Positions 4,453 through 10,223 of a stretch of 64,000 nucleotides of DNA are shown piece after piece. Source of the DNA: Alphaproteobacteria bacterium. GTDB taxonomy: Bacteria > Pseudomonadota > Alphaproteobacteria > UBA828. Under the pieces are notes generated by a model. That model was not told where the DNA came from and made no database searches. It was given only the letters and a program-made list of their open reading frames with translations. The position numbers were made by a program, and so were the translations under genes. The stretch spans positions 62,001 to 126,000 of the forward strand of contig JAJDUK010000056.1 of assembly GCA_022826665.1 (NCBI GenBank), read 5' to 3'. The stretch's first letter is position 1. Each line of letters opens with the position of its first letter.

Positions 4453-5244
4453 CTACGGATGGACGTCGTAGCCGCCGACCGCCAGGTAGCCGCCGTCGAT
4501 CACGAGCTCCGTGCCGGTGATGAAGCTCGACTCCTCCGAGGCGAGGAAGATCGCGCCGTTGGCGATGTCCTCAGGCTTGCCCACACGCCCGATGGGGTGC
4601 TGCTTGGCGAGCGCCTCGATCCCCGCTTCAAGGCTGCCGTAGTCGCGGTAGCAGGTGGCCTCCATCATCTCGGTATGGATGTAGCCGGGATGGATCGAGT
4701 TCACCCGGATGCGGCGTTCGTCCTTGGCGCCGTCCAGCGCTGCCGCCTTGGTGAAAAGCCTGACCGCCCCCTTACTCGCGCTGTAGGCCGAGAGAGCCGG
4801 AATGCTCGTGAAGCCCAGGATCGAGGAGAGGTTGATGATCGAGCCGCCCGCGCGCATCGCGGCCATGCCGTGCTTGGTGCCGAGGAAGACGCCGTCGACG
4901 TTGACCGACATGGTCTTGTGCCAGCTTTCCAGCGTGACCACGTCGAGCGGCTCGACGATGCCAACGCCTGCGTTGTTGACGAGAATGTCGAGGCCGCCGA
5001 AGCGATCGATCACGGCCGGGATCGCGGCCTCCCAATCGGCCTCCTTGGTCGTGTCCAGCGTGATGAATATGGCCTTGGCGCCGCCGGCCTCAAGCTCCGC
5101 CGCGAGCGCCTTGCCGCCTTCCTCATCGATATCGCTGAGCGCGACCGGCGCGCCCTCCGCCGCCATCCCGCGCGCCATTGCCGCGCCGAGGCCCCTCCCG
5201 GCGCCGGTGATGAGCGCGACGCGGCCTTCCAGTCGTCCTGCCAT
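4453..5244 (-). CDS. SDR family NAD(P)-dependent oxidoreductase (copy A of tandem duplicate)
   Basis: 263 aa; ITGAGRGLGAAMARG, NNAG, YSASK motifs of classical SDRs. Confidence 0.92.
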   Translation of the reverse strand: MAGRLEGRVALITGAGRGLGAAMARGMAAEGAPVALSDIDEEGGKALAAELEAGGAKAIFITLDTTKEADWEAAIPAVIDRFGGLDILVNNAGVGIVEPLDVVTLESWHKTMSVNVDGVFLGTKHGMAAMRAGGSIINLSSILGFTSIPALSAYSASKGAVRLFTKAAALDGAKDERRIRVNSIHPGYIHTEMMEATCYRDYGSLEAGIEALAKQHPIGRVGKPEDIANGAIFLASEESSFITGTELVIDGGYLAVGGYDVHP

Positions 5245-5447: not shown

Positions 5448-6239
5448 CTACGGATGGACGTCGTAGCCGCCCACCGCCAGGAAGCCGCCGTCGATTACCA
5501 GCTCAGTGCCGGTGATGAAGCTCGACTCCTCCGACGCGAGGAAGATTGCGCCGTTGGCGATGTCCTGCGGCTTGCCCACACGCCCGATGGGGTGTCGCTT
5601 GGCAATCGCCTCGATCCCTGCTTCCAGGCTGCCGTATTCGCTGTAGCAGGTAGCCTCCATCATCTCGGTATGGATGTAGCCGGGATGGATCGAGTTCACC
5701 CGGATGCGGCGTTCGTCCTTGGCGCCGTCCAGCGCCGCCCCTTTGGTGAAGAGCCTGACCGCCCCCTTGCTCGCGCAATACGCGGTGAGCTCCGGCGTGG
5801 CCGTAAAGCCCATGATCGAGGAGATGTTGATGATCGAGCCGCCCGCGCGCATCGCGGCCATGCCGTGCTTGGTGCCGAGGAAGACGCCGTCGAGGTTGAC
5901 CGACATGGTCTTGTGCCAGCTCTCCACCGTGATCGCGTCGACCGGCTCGACGACGACGACGCCCGCGTTGTTGACGAGGATGTCGAGCCCGCCGAAGCGA
6001 TCGATCACGGCCGGAATCGCGGCCTCCCAATCGGCCTCCCTGGTCGTGTCGAGGGTGATGAACATGGTCTCGGCGCCGCCAGCCTCGAGCTCTGCCGCGA
6101 GCGCCTCGCCCCCCTCCTTGTCGATGTCGCTAAGCGCGACCGGCGCGCCCTCCGCCGCCATCCCGCGCGCCATTGCCGCGCCGAGGCCCCTCGCGGCGCC
6201 GGTAATGAGCGCGACGCGGCCCTCCAGCCGTCCGGCCAT
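5448..6239 (-). CDS. SDR family NAD(P)-dependent oxidoreductase (copy B of tandem duplicate)
   Basis: 263 aa, same length as 4453..5244; by hand count about 28 substitutions and no indels. Confidence 0.92.
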   Translation of the reverse strand: MAGRLEGRVALITGAARGLGAAMARGMAAEGAPVALSDIDKEGGEALAAELEAGGAETMFITLDTTREADWEAAIPAVIDRFGGLDILVNNAGVVVVEPVDAITVESWHKTMSVNLDGVFLGTKHGMAAMRAGGSIINISSIMGFTATPELTAYCASKGAVRLFTKGAALDGAKDERRIRVNSIHPGYIHTEMMEATCYSEYGSLEAGIEAIAKRHPIGRVGKPQDIANGAIFLASEESSFITGTELVIDGGFLAVGGYDVHP

Positions 6240-7022: not shown

Positions 7023-7427
7023 GACCCTCTCCCCATCCGTGCCGTGTGTGCGCCGGATCATGGCGCAGATGCCGCGCCGGCGGAAGGGCGCGCGGCGCCA
7101 GCGAGAGCGCGGGGGCGGCGCCTCGGCCTGGCCCGTGGGACGCACATCAAATTCTTGAGGCGGGACAAGCCGGGATCAGGCGGGATAAGTGGGAGGTGTC
7201 GCCCGCGCCTCGGTTGCGGACGCCCGCTCACCCCACTGCCGAAGCTCGTTGGCTCGGGAGCGTCATGGCGCGATCTTGGCGCGAGCGGCGCGCCCCATGC
7301 ACCGGACCATGGTCCGGGCAAAGGGGGGAGCGGACGGAGAGCGAAGCTGATCCCAGACAGTGCCGCCTGCGTTGCCTCCGTGTACCTCGAGGATTGAAAG
7401 GGCGCGACGGGCTTCCGCGGCGCGATT

Positions 7428-7468
7428 CCCCCTCCGCCTTTGGGAAAGAGGGACAGGGGGAGGTGGGC
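7428..7468. repeat. GC-rich intergenic element similar to 5281-5325 (inverted orientation)
   Basis: Reverse complement cccacctccccctgtccctctttcccaaaggcggaggggg closely resembles cccacctccccctgtccccctccccccgaagggcggaggggg at 5281. Confidence 0.6.
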
Positions 7469-7605
7469 TGGCTCAACCGGGTGAGCACCGGTCGCCGCCC
7501 ATTGATCGCGCGTCCATTCTTCCAACAGGGCTTGAAAGGTCTAGCTGCCTACACCATATGGTGTGAGTCTGCCTCAGCCCACCCCAAAGTCTTCGGACCA
7601 TGGCA

Positions 7606-7699
7606 GCGCAGTGGCTGGGCACCGCTCCGGGATTACCGGTGAGGTGCGGGTCGTCGTGAACTTCCATCTTGCATGGGAGGCACGCCCCGAAGGACGCCG
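7606..7699. repeat. 94-bp direct repeat, copy 1
   Basis: gcgcagtggctgggcaccgctccgggattaccggtgaggtgcgggtcgtcgtgaacttccatcttgcatgggaggcacgccccgaaggacgccg, identical base for base to 7953-8046. Confidence 0.95.
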
Positions 7700-7840
7700 G
7701 CCCTTCGCTGCCTTTGACGCCATGGCCGGGGAGCACGCAAGTGCAAGTCACATGGCGGATGGGGCAATTTTGCAGGCGGGGGCCGGGGCGGCGGCCGCGC
7801 TTGACAGCGCCAAAAACCTGGTAGGATGGAGGCAACGCAA

Positions 7841-8053
7841 GTGCGACCAACGTATCAGAACCGCCGCCGCTGGGTGGCGACGATTGCGGCGGCACTTGTC
7901 GCTGTGGTCGCGGCGCTTTTCGGTCCAGACGCCTGGTCTTTCGACAATGGCGGCGCAGTGGCTGGGCACCGCTCCGGGATTACCGGTGAGGTGCGGGTCG
8001 TCGTGAACTTCCATCTTGCATGGGAGGCACGCCCCGAAGGACGCCGAGCGTGA
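7841..8053 (+). CDS. Small putative exported/membrane peptide whose C-terminus is encoded by repeat copy 2
   Basis: ORF (ATG 7826 or GTG 7841): VRPTYQNRRRWVATIAAALVAVVAALFGPDAWSFDNGG... has a basic N-terminus and hydrophobic stretch like a signal peptide; TTGACA hexamer at 7801. Coding status uncertain. Confidence 0.3.
   Translation: MRPTYQNRRRWVATIAAALVAVVAALFGPDAWSFDNGGAVAGHRSGITGEVRVVVNFHLAWEARPEGRRA
7953..8046. repeat. 94-bp direct repeat, copy 2
   Basis: Identical to 7606-7699, 347 bp downstream, ending about 30 bp before the RT start codon. Confidence 0.95.
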
Positions 8054-8054
8054 A

Positions 8055-8092
8055 GGGTCGGAGTAGGCCCCGGCGATGACAGACTCCGACCC
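8055..8092. promoter_or_regulatory. Inverted repeat/hairpin spanning the RT start codon
   Basis: gggtcggagt (8055-8064) and actccgaccc (8083-8092) form a perfect 10-bp stem around an 18-nt loop containing ATG 8076. Confidence 0.6.
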
Positions 8093-9378
8093 ACCACGCC
8101 CCTCCAAGTCCGCCTTATGTCTGCACGTCCGCAAAATTAAGACGTTATGGTTGGCATGGATCTCGATTCGATCTAAGGCGCTTCGCTCGCCCAATCAGGA
8201 AACCAGAGCATCTGCAATTGCAATTGACGAAAATCCGTACAGCACACTTCTCGCACTTCAGAGACAGTTGGCATCAGGTACGTTCCGGTTTGAGCCTCAG
8301 AGGGGAGCTCTGAAATCAAGAAAGGGAAAGAAACCACGCCCGCTGGTGATTTCTCCGCTTAACAACCGGATCGTCCAGAGGGCCATACTTGACACGCTTC
8401 AGAGCAACAAGCCTTCCATTAGAGAGCGTCTCGGATCGATACCCGATGTACTCTATACACCTACTTCGGTCGGCGGGATTCCAGAGAAAGGCTCATCCAA
8501 CGCTGTTCACTTGATCCGCGGCTCGATTGCCGCGGGAGCCACGCACTTTGTTCGGTCAGACATTAAAGACTTCTTTACACGTGTCAATACTGCTCAGTTG
8601 ATCACCACAATACAGGACGTTACCGGTGACGCCAACTTCACGAACTTGCTAAGGGATGGTCTTCGGGTAGAACTTGCCAATGCTGACAAGCCTGGAGTTC
8701 GCGAGTGGATACACCTAATTCCCAAACGAGATCATCGGTGTTGCGCAGGGTTCGAGCCTATCGGCATTTTGTGCAAACTTTGTGCTTCGAGAATTGGATG
8801 AGGACTTGAATCAGAGTAACTTGCTCATGGTTCGCTACATTGATGACTTCGTTATTTTGGCTCACTCAAGAGCAGCAGCCATGCGTGGATGGTCAACCGC
8901 TAAGGATTTATTGGCAAAGCTTGAGTTGGAAGCGCATGACCCTTCGCTAAATAACGAGAAGGCGTCTATGGGCCTTGTGTCTCAAGGGTTTGATTTTCTG
9001 TCCTATCGATTCAGTAGCAACGGTGTGGGCCTCTCTCGTTCAGTAAAATCCGTGATCTTGGAAAAGGTGGACAACACCATCGCGGATACCAAGAAGTCAA
9101 TTTCCGAAGGGTTCACGAAGCAGCGAAGGGCCGAAAGTCGATTAGCGCAATCTCTAGCCCATATAGACAGTCAAGTGCGTGGTTGGGGAGATAGTTTTAG
9201 AGATATCGATCGTAGAGTTGAATTCCAACAGTTAGATCAACAGATTGCTTCTCGTATCAGTGGACTTCTGGGATGGTATTCGAGGCAAACAAAGAGCCGC
9301 GAACCGGAAGAGAAAATGCGTGCGCTTGGGGTGGCGCTGCTCTACGACACGCCAGCCCCGGAAGCGCCTGCAGAATAG
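8076..9378 (+). pseudogene. Reverse transcriptase (RNA-directed DNA polymerase), interrupted by one +1 frame change near 8721-8726
   Basis: ORF 8076..8801 carries KKPRPLVISPLNNRIVQRAILDTLQ and HFVRSDIKDFFTRVN; the +1 frame from about 8723 reads N-E-I-I-GVAQGSSLSAFCANFVLRELDEDLNQSNLLMVRYIDDFVILAHS...NEKASMGLVSQGFDFLSYRF. Together these give RT motifs 1-7 with the YxDD box. Confidence 0.85.
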
Positions 9379-10223
9379 GGTACATTCGGCTCACGGGTAA
9401 CCTCCACCTCAGCGCCGAACCGTGCCAATCGTCGTTCCATGATCCGCACCGCCTCCGGGTTGTCGTCGACGAGGAGGCACGAGCGGCCGTGGCGGGCGGC
9501 GGCTTCGCCGAAGGTGCCGGAGCCCGCGAAGAAATCCAGCAGCCTGTCGCCCGGCGATGAGTGCACCTTGACGATGCGCTCCAGCAGCCCAAGCGGCTTC
9601 TGGGTGGCGTAGCCGGTCTTCTCCTTGCCCGTGGTGGGCACGATCGTGTGCCACCAGACGTCCGTCGGGGTCTTGCCGCGCGCGGCTTTCTCGGCCCCCA
9701 CCAGCGCCGGCGCCATGTAGGGGATTCGGTCCGCGGCGTCCAGGTGGAAGGTGTAGTGCGCCGGGTCCTTCGCGTACCAGAGGATGGTGTCGTGCTTGGC
9801 CGGCCAGCGCCGCTTCGGCCGCCCGCCGTAGTCGTAGGCCCAGACGATCTCGTTGATGAAACTCTCGCGCCCGAAGATGCCGTCCAGCAGCACCTTGCAG
9901 TAGTGCACCTCGCGGCAATCACTGTGAAAGAAGAGCGAGCCGCTCGCGGCCAGCACCCGGTGGGCCTCGATCAAGCGAGGCTCGAGGAAGGCTAGGTAGT
10001 CGTCGAAACTGTCTGCATAGCCGGTGGCGCCGAGCGTGGTTGTACGATAGCGCCGGCCCTGAAAGCCGATCCTGTCGCCCGCCTCGTCACGCTCCGTCCT
10101 GAGCGCGACCCGCGTCTGGGTTCGTCCGGTGTTGAAGGGCGGGTCGATATAGATCAGGTCGATGCTGCAGGCGTCGAGCGAGCGCAGAACCTCCAGATTG
10201 TCCGCGAGCACGATACGCAACAT
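9342..10223 (-). CDS. Site-specific DNA methyltransferase (beta-class N4-cytosine/N6-adenine type)
   Basis: IYIDPPFNTGRTQ (motif IV, DPPF) precedes ATQKPLGLLERIVKVHSSPGDRLLDFFAGSGTFGEAA (motif I, FAGSGT). Confidence 0.92.
   Translation of the reverse strand: MLRIVLADNLEVLRSLDACSIDLIYIDPPFNTGRTQTRVALRTERDEAGDRIGFQGRRYRTTTLGATGYADSFDDYLAFLEPRLIEAHRVLAASGSLFFHSDCREVHYCKVLLDGIFGRESFINEIVWAYDYGGRPKRRWPAKHDTILWYAKDPAHYTFHLDAADRIPYMAPALVGAEKAARGKTPTDVWWHTIVPTTGKEKTGYATQKPLGLLERIVKVHSSPGDRLLDFFAGSGTFGEAAARHGRSCLLVDDNPEAVRIMERRLARFGAEVEVTREPNVPYSAGASGAGVS

Follow-up and report, generated by a model that had tools for sequence, protein, structure and literature searches.

What keeps two long, perfectly identical direct repeats immediately upstream of a reverse transcriptase (RT) gene, and what do they specify? 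The question was raised by a first-pass annotation of the window, the 64,000-nucleotide stretch of an Alphaproteobacteria bacterium contig analyzed here, which had reported two identical 94-bp direct repeats with diverging flanks ahead of an RT. Recomputation bore out their identity and coordinates, the two cores (7606-7699 and 7953-8046) being 100% identical over 94 bp. The elements under discussion are the following.

7589..7699, + strand: direct repeat copy A, with its perfect core at 7606-7699; a homologous pair is found in 17 of 18 G2L4 loci
7936..8046, + strand: direct repeat copy B, with its perfect core at 7953-8046; predicted to code for the C-terminal half of a small membrane protein
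8076..9378, + strand: reverse transcriptase (YIDD) assigned to the G2L4 family, with one frameshift at ~8720-8737

On the 5' side the repeat pair extends, with 4 mismatches, to 111 nt (7589-7699 and 7936-8046, 96% identity), and the start-to-start distance between copies A and B is 347 nt. The divergence of the flanks was likewise confirmed, the likeness breaking off abruptly past the 3' edge and vanishing in no more than ~17 nt on the 5' flank, and the second copy, said to end about 30 bp before the RT start, ends at 8046, leaving 29 nt before the ATG at 8076. An exact repeat of 94 bp within 4 kb cannot be due to chance. When the whole assembly (4.63 Mb, 106 contigs) was searched, just these two copies came up, tied to the RT locus, and the possibility of a dispersed genomic element was thereby ruled out. 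That the pair is an artefact or a collapsed repeat of a draft assembly has a negligible probability: the source assembly is indeed a draft of 106 contigs, but the architecture described below is also present in the single-contig genomes L011, L017 and L042, in the complete plasmid L040 and in several independent assemblies, which argues that it does not stem from assembly.

A PADLOC search on the window RT returned a generic RT model plus UG17, both with modest scores, UG17 being the best named model at only 103-132 bits. The UG17 membership hinted at by this result was dropped in favor of G2L4 after a search against the PDB, in which a profile of the window relatives matched solved G2L4 enzymes with an E-value of 3e-132, followed by group II maturases at 1e-36, the closest solved structure being the P. 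aeruginosa G2L4 enzyme (PDB 9D5X/9D4S). A tree of 42 RTs agrees with this assignment, since the window RT and 17 relatives form one clade (99/100) separate from YADD relatives. The YIDD motif, which is distinctive of the G2L4 group (PMC4244168), occurs in the window and in nearly all clade members (FIDD in L011 and YVDD in L044). Across the RT3a plug, an insertion before the AQG motif, the L007 enzyme aligned gap-free to 9D5X, and it is at this segment that the window RT frame breaks. The serine cluster of the RT0 loop is seen in L034 and L040, and only partially in the window and L007. Judged by profile, tree and motifs, the window RT is a member of the G2L4 family. Its N-terminal half is read in the 8076-8801 frame, and its C-terminal half, after the frameshift at ~8720-8737, runs to 9378; both halves are conserved, though in different frames, and the C-terminal half alone also has the solved G2L4 enzymes as its best match. 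The frameshift reflects either recent inactivation or decay or an assembly error, and the window copy of the module may therefore be dead.

In order to determine how far the repeats accompany this RT family, relatives were collected from a scan of genome contigs, which yielded five, and from searches of genomes, viral contigs and plasmids, which yielded more, and the sequence upstream of every RT was scanned for its best ungapped repeat. A repeat pair was identified in 17 of the 18 G2L4 loci with usable upstream sequence, with copies of 111-138 nt that are 96-100% identical within a locus, a copy B ending near the RT start or just inside it, and periods of 346, 347 (four loci), 352, 353, 355 (two), 356, 358 (two), 361, 376 (two), 378 and 382 nt. 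The RTs of these repeat-bearing loci are often only about 30-37% identical. No such pair was found upstream of the more distant RTs in the tree (e.g. L016, L018-L028, L046-L064), with the exception of L017, where a YADD RT of the sister branch (924-2688) presents the same repeat architecture with a period of 375 nt and a small membrane-protein ORF (1142-1498) that also passes through copy B. The survey strongly supports a conserved architecture, and the recent duplication that had been suggested for the window gives way to an old arrangement shared by the whole G2L4 clade. The plasmid search gave no DNA match for the window locus, the search of E. coli genomes gave none for the L040 locus, and single-protein scans of viral contigs added nothing further.

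The sequence of the repeat is not what has been conserved. Between loci, near-identical ones excepted, repeat identity is 45-87%, mostly below 80%, and the repeats are often unalignable. Where two loci differ, A and B share the change: 17 of 17 for L035-L038, 23 of 23 for L007-L008, 43 of 43 for L038-L043, and all 39 for L035-L042, in which both copies are alike, and not one column in these four comparisons shows a disagreement between A and B inside a locus. Differences common to both copies imply that A and B have been repeatedly homogenized while their sequence drifts freely; on these alignments, what is maintained is the identity of A and B and no particular sequence. The proposal that the copies are kept alike by ongoing copying or conversion is thus sustained, and the RT itself is a plausible agent of that copying.

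Direct repeats can also be acted upon by recombination, and one locus bears on this. L013 presents a single repeat, to which A and B of L035 are both homologous, followed by a B-side tail and an intact RT and preceded by a P_A-like stretch (see below), as if the unit had been deleted, and would be the product expected from recombination between A and B. The idea that the 347-nt unit is excisable is borne out to the extent that it can evidently be lost; the repeat as a mere cassette border does not fit, since copy B would encode part of a small transmembrane protein and a structured RNA directly adjoins copy A. A recombination switch would have RecA, or strand annealing by the G2L4 enzyme, act on A and B, so that a crossover drops the RNA domain, the P_B promoter and the sequence for the N-terminal half of the membrane protein, after which the RT lies downstream of P_A, with gene conversion keeping the copies identical. 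L013 shows the predicted one-repeat product with its intact RT and P_A-like start, and G2L4 is documented to anneal short homologies (PMC12337344). We nevertheless consider such a switch rather unlikely, because identical repeats at so short a distance should collapse readily and both copies are retained in 17 of 18 loci, and because the abutting structured RNA would be left unexplained. Loss of the unit should be easy, and the retention of both copies elsewhere hence implies selection.

Further features lie around the repeats.

7532..7562, + strand: putative promoter P_A before repeat A (TTGAAA 7532-7537, TATGGT 7557-7562), from a consensus scan
7801..7827, + strand: putative promoter P_B (TTGACA 7801-7806, TAGGAT 7822-7827, with a conserved CAAAAA between them), from a consensus scan and alignment
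7841..8053, + strand: ORF of a small transmembrane protein, starting at GTG 7841 with a Shine-Dalgarno sequence or at the in-frame ATG 7826
8048..8099, + strand: inverted repeat flanking the start codon of the RT, with 17-nt arms at 8048-8064 and 8083-8099

The small ORF of the window has a unique N-terminal half in the spacer, and copy B forms its C-terminal half, a layout that is the same in all 17 loci. In each of them, a strong transmembrane segment (hydropathy 1.7-2.6) lies just ahead of B in exactly one of the frames entering it; basic residues come before this segment, as do, in most loci, a Shine-Dalgarno start and a near-consensus P_B. Inside the repeat, pN/pS is 0.5-0.7 for the membrane frame and 0.9-1.7 for the other frames, and third positions account for ~43 of 82 repeat differences in three largely independent pairs. 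This coding signal, moderate when the pairs are taken singly, argues that copy B encodes part of a small transmembrane protein. Searches of the small ORFs of the window, L007, L009, L010 and L040 against Pfam and NCBIfam gave nothing above cut-off. P_B is near-consensus in 14 of the 17 G2L4 loci, with a score that shuffled sequences rarely reach; P_A is weaker, with a CTTGAA-type box before A in ~11 of 17 loci and several loci scoring no better than shuffles. In 12 loci (L009, L010, L011, L012, L034, L035, L036, L038, L040, L042, L043 and L044) a (C/G)AAAAAC heptamer has the membrane frame at -1; in most cases a Shine-Dalgarno start is in phase with the heptamer and a predicted hairpin comes after it. 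This arrangement suggests a programmed -1 frameshift site and regulated expression of the membrane protein, an ATG at the heptamer position being the alternative in some loci. Translational control is likewise a possible role for the inverted repeat at the RT start, which forms a strong hairpin in the window and L006-L008 and takes a GTYGGGG...CCCCRAC-like version in L009, L034 and L040.

Copy A, for its part, is followed by a different kind of element.

7703..7782, + strand: conserved structured RNA domain with nested helices and a GAU/AGU internal loop (model R1, 69 bits)

RNAalifold on nine loci predicted 18 pairs, 9 of them changed on both sides, and a covariance model built from these nine loci recovered L034 and L040, which were outside the training set, at the homologous place. 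Across 12 loci, 92% of cells are paired, versus at most 51% with shifted structures, 10 pairs are changed on both sides, and covariation is 0.551 versus 0.328 in shuffles; these counts lean to the model, to which the alignment was fitted, and the loci amount to ~7 effective lineages. The model had no match in L010, L011, L012, L033 and L044, of which L012 does present a matching two-helix form, and Rfam gave zero matches in the window region. The gap from the end of copy A to the model match is 3-8 nt in nearly all of the 12 loci, so that repeat and structured domain abut. In the spacer that holds this domain, the frame continuing from the repeat shows no coding selection (pN/pS 0.87-1.02). 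Copy A is accordingly read here, as a matter of interpretation, as the 5' part of a putative noncoding RNA.

Two promoter-like sites and a structured RNA could also belong to a duplicated regulatory element, in which an RNA from P_A would use its sequence identity with the membrane-protein mRNA to act as a decoy for it or to regulate it, and the RT would be a co-transcribed repair enzyme, in keeping with its documented repair role (PMC12337344). This account appears improbable: A and B have the same sense and cannot base-pair with each other, the conservation is bound to one RT clade, and the G2L4 RT of L011 is fused to an RNase H domain.

A further account takes the repeat-spacer-repeat geometry and its conserved period as signs of template jumping. 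An RNA running from A through B would be copied by an RT that re-aligns A to B, either as in the A-B-A' template of DRT10 or as in LTR-like terminal redundancy, and the product would be a concatemeric or circular cDNA with a period of ~347 nt that bears P_B together with a membrane-protein gene lengthened by spacer sequence. Precedents exist in DRT10 (PMC12632851) and in DRT2, which assembles a gene de novo (PMC11100668). In most loci joining lengthens the ORF, to as much as 190 aa, and in L017, with its period of 375 nt, the concatemer ORF is endless. We regard template jumping as unlikely, if less so than the recombination switch, given that the G2L4 periods are mostly no multiple of three, that the ORF extension lies in the frame devoid of coding selection noted above, and that the A-A' homologies of DRT10 are short, far below the length of the repeats here. 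The same pN/pS values, which indicate a noncoding spacer extension in the G2L4 loci, led us to reject a circularly permuted gene joined by the RT as the main reading and to keep it only as a rival. The module resembles DRT2 in an RNA upstream of the RT that could yield a gene only once copied repeatedly. It differs in that its membrane protein is already complete in the genome, in that an endless concatemer frame is found in 0 of 17 G2L4 loci and only in the sister locus L017, and in an RT score to Drt2 far below cut-off.

Two near-identical repeats of ~100 nt beside an RT are also the feature by which this locus resembles diversity-generating retroelements (DGRs), with A as template repeat and B as variable repeat. 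We give this reading next to no credence, as the RT belongs to another family, G2L4, and the few mismatches between A and B show no concentration at adenines. Two DGRs on viral contigs recovered by the same search, L082 (1411-1755) and L083 (1483-1827), served as positive control: every mismatch falls on adenines of the RT-proximal copy (16 of 16 and 14 of 14), and DGR membership was dropped. An LTR element or target-site duplication was dropped as well, since the repeats lie internally, contain coding sequence and keep their homology from one insertion site to another; in the module the RT lies outside the repeats, which hold coding sequence and are not the outer ends of a mobile unit.

The reading that we tentatively favor, as a possibility still short of probable, is a three-part module of RNA, RT and membrane protein, DRT10- or retron-like, with a cDNA-based off-switch in which the same copying keeps A identical to B. 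What the sequences show is a conserved order of the parts, the identity of A and B with their concerted evolution, a covarying RNA domain directly on the 3' side of A, and a membrane frame that runs into B. Transcription from P_A, use of the RNA as template, antisense action, toxicity and a trigger are steps that we infer. The noncoding RNA would start just before copy A and consist of A plus the structured domain, on which the RT would anchor to copy A by run-off to the RNA 5' end. The resulting cDNA would be exactly antisense to the membrane-protein mRNA and would keep it off, the DNA:RNA hybrid being cut by RNase H. Were the RT or the cDNA disturbed, for instance by a phage, a toxic membrane protein would be released, and the same cDNA, annealed to or recombined with B, would render the copies identical over just this stretch. 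What favors an off-switch of this kind is that the repeat reaches from near the putative 5' end of the RNA to the border of the domain, which is the run-off stretch. The three-part module is further supported by the confinement of the repeat pair, L017 aside, to one RT clade (99/100), by the RNase H fusion in L011, and by the same order of noncoding RNA, membrane protein and RT in DRT10 (PMC12632851).

Several points stand against the three-part module. In published work, G2L4 repairs double-strand breaks through end joining, with DNA as substrate and no noncoding RNA (PMC12337344, PMC13015716); plain gene conversion between near direct repeats could homogenize A and B without the RT; the antisense would pair in the middle of the coding region, away from the start, so that RNase H would be needed; and the coding signal is moderate, five loci are missed by the RNA model, P_A is weak in several loci and the window RT is frameshifted.

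With DRT10, which is arranged as noncoding RNA, SLATT membrane protein and RT around an A-B-A' template (PMC12632851), the module shares that order, a repeat around the template and UG17 as best named PADLOC model, and its upstream noncoding RNA would be the structured RNA predicted by covariation. It differs from DRT10/UG17 in its G2L4 RT, with only 103-132 bits to UG17, in the lack of a SLATT protein, the five small ORFs searched having no Pfam or NCBIfam match, and in coding repeats of 111-138 nt versus a few nt. Any functional likeness to DRT10 is thus one of broad outline at best, and membership is ruled out by differences in RT family, effector and repeat scale. Retrons likewise combine an RT with an adjacent noncoding RNA and an effector held in check, but the module RT is of no retron type and no known RNA family was matched in the region by Rfam. 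The likeness to G2L4 enzymes lies in the RT itself (the profile E-value of 3e-132 versus 1e-36 for the next family, YIDD and the gap-free RT3a plug), whereas these enzymes are described as stand-alone and domesticated for DNA repair (PMC12337344, PMC4244168). Within the G2L4 papers considered (PMC12337344, PMC4244168, PMC13015716), no mention of upstream repeats, structured RNA or membrane protein was found.

The genomic setting of the module was also examined.

7072..9400, strand not applicable: variable slot in the genus, flanked by genes for a racemase-like protein and a DNA methyltransferase and occupied here by the module

Homology of the relative G014 runs to window position 7071 and resumes from 9401, with unrelated sequence between, and in other relatives the homology limit lies at 9401/9402 or 9437/9438. 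Elsewhere the module adjoins terminase and integrase genes or recombinases, and its occurrence is sparse and patchy: in one family, 2 of 249 genomes carried it under the strict cut-off. The prophage and recombinase setting and the patchy occurrence fit a defence-like role; slot, mobile neighbors, sparse occurrence and the RNase H fusion point to mobile defence-like cargo engaged in RNA-templated synthesis and not to a housekeeping repair gene.

These observations suggest that G2L4 RTs, investigated until now solely as DNA-repair enzymes, are really RNA-templated defence-like systems. A more specific version, which we hold to be doubtful but conceivable, is that they primarily drive a toxin-antitoxin or defence system based on reverse transcription and that repair is secondary, the antitoxin being an antisense cDNA from a noncoding RNA that duplicates half of the toxin gene, with RT copying keeping template and target identical. 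If true, this would be an RT-based toxin-antitoxin or defence logic previously unseen, with antisense cDNA as antitoxin. G2L4 RT is the showcase of an RT domesticated for DNA repair, and its crystal structures and single-molecule work were obtained without a cognate RNA; a covarying RNA and a membrane-protein gene with a common, homogenized 100-nt stretch imply an overlooked natural template and partner, and represent a new case of concerted evolution, possibly driven by a reverse transcriptase.

Some individual loci deserve mention. The G2L4 RT of L011 (1504-3204) is the one with the fused C-terminal RNase HI domain. L033 and L036 carry their G2L4 modules beside phage terminase genes, and L036 also has an integrase, as prophage cargo. 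On the P. aeruginosa plasmid L040, a TIR-domain protein gene and a recombinase gene (8315-9226) lie directly downstream of the G2L4 module. In the window itself, two very similar short-chain dehydrogenase genes are found in tandem on the minus strand (4453-5244 and 5448-6239).
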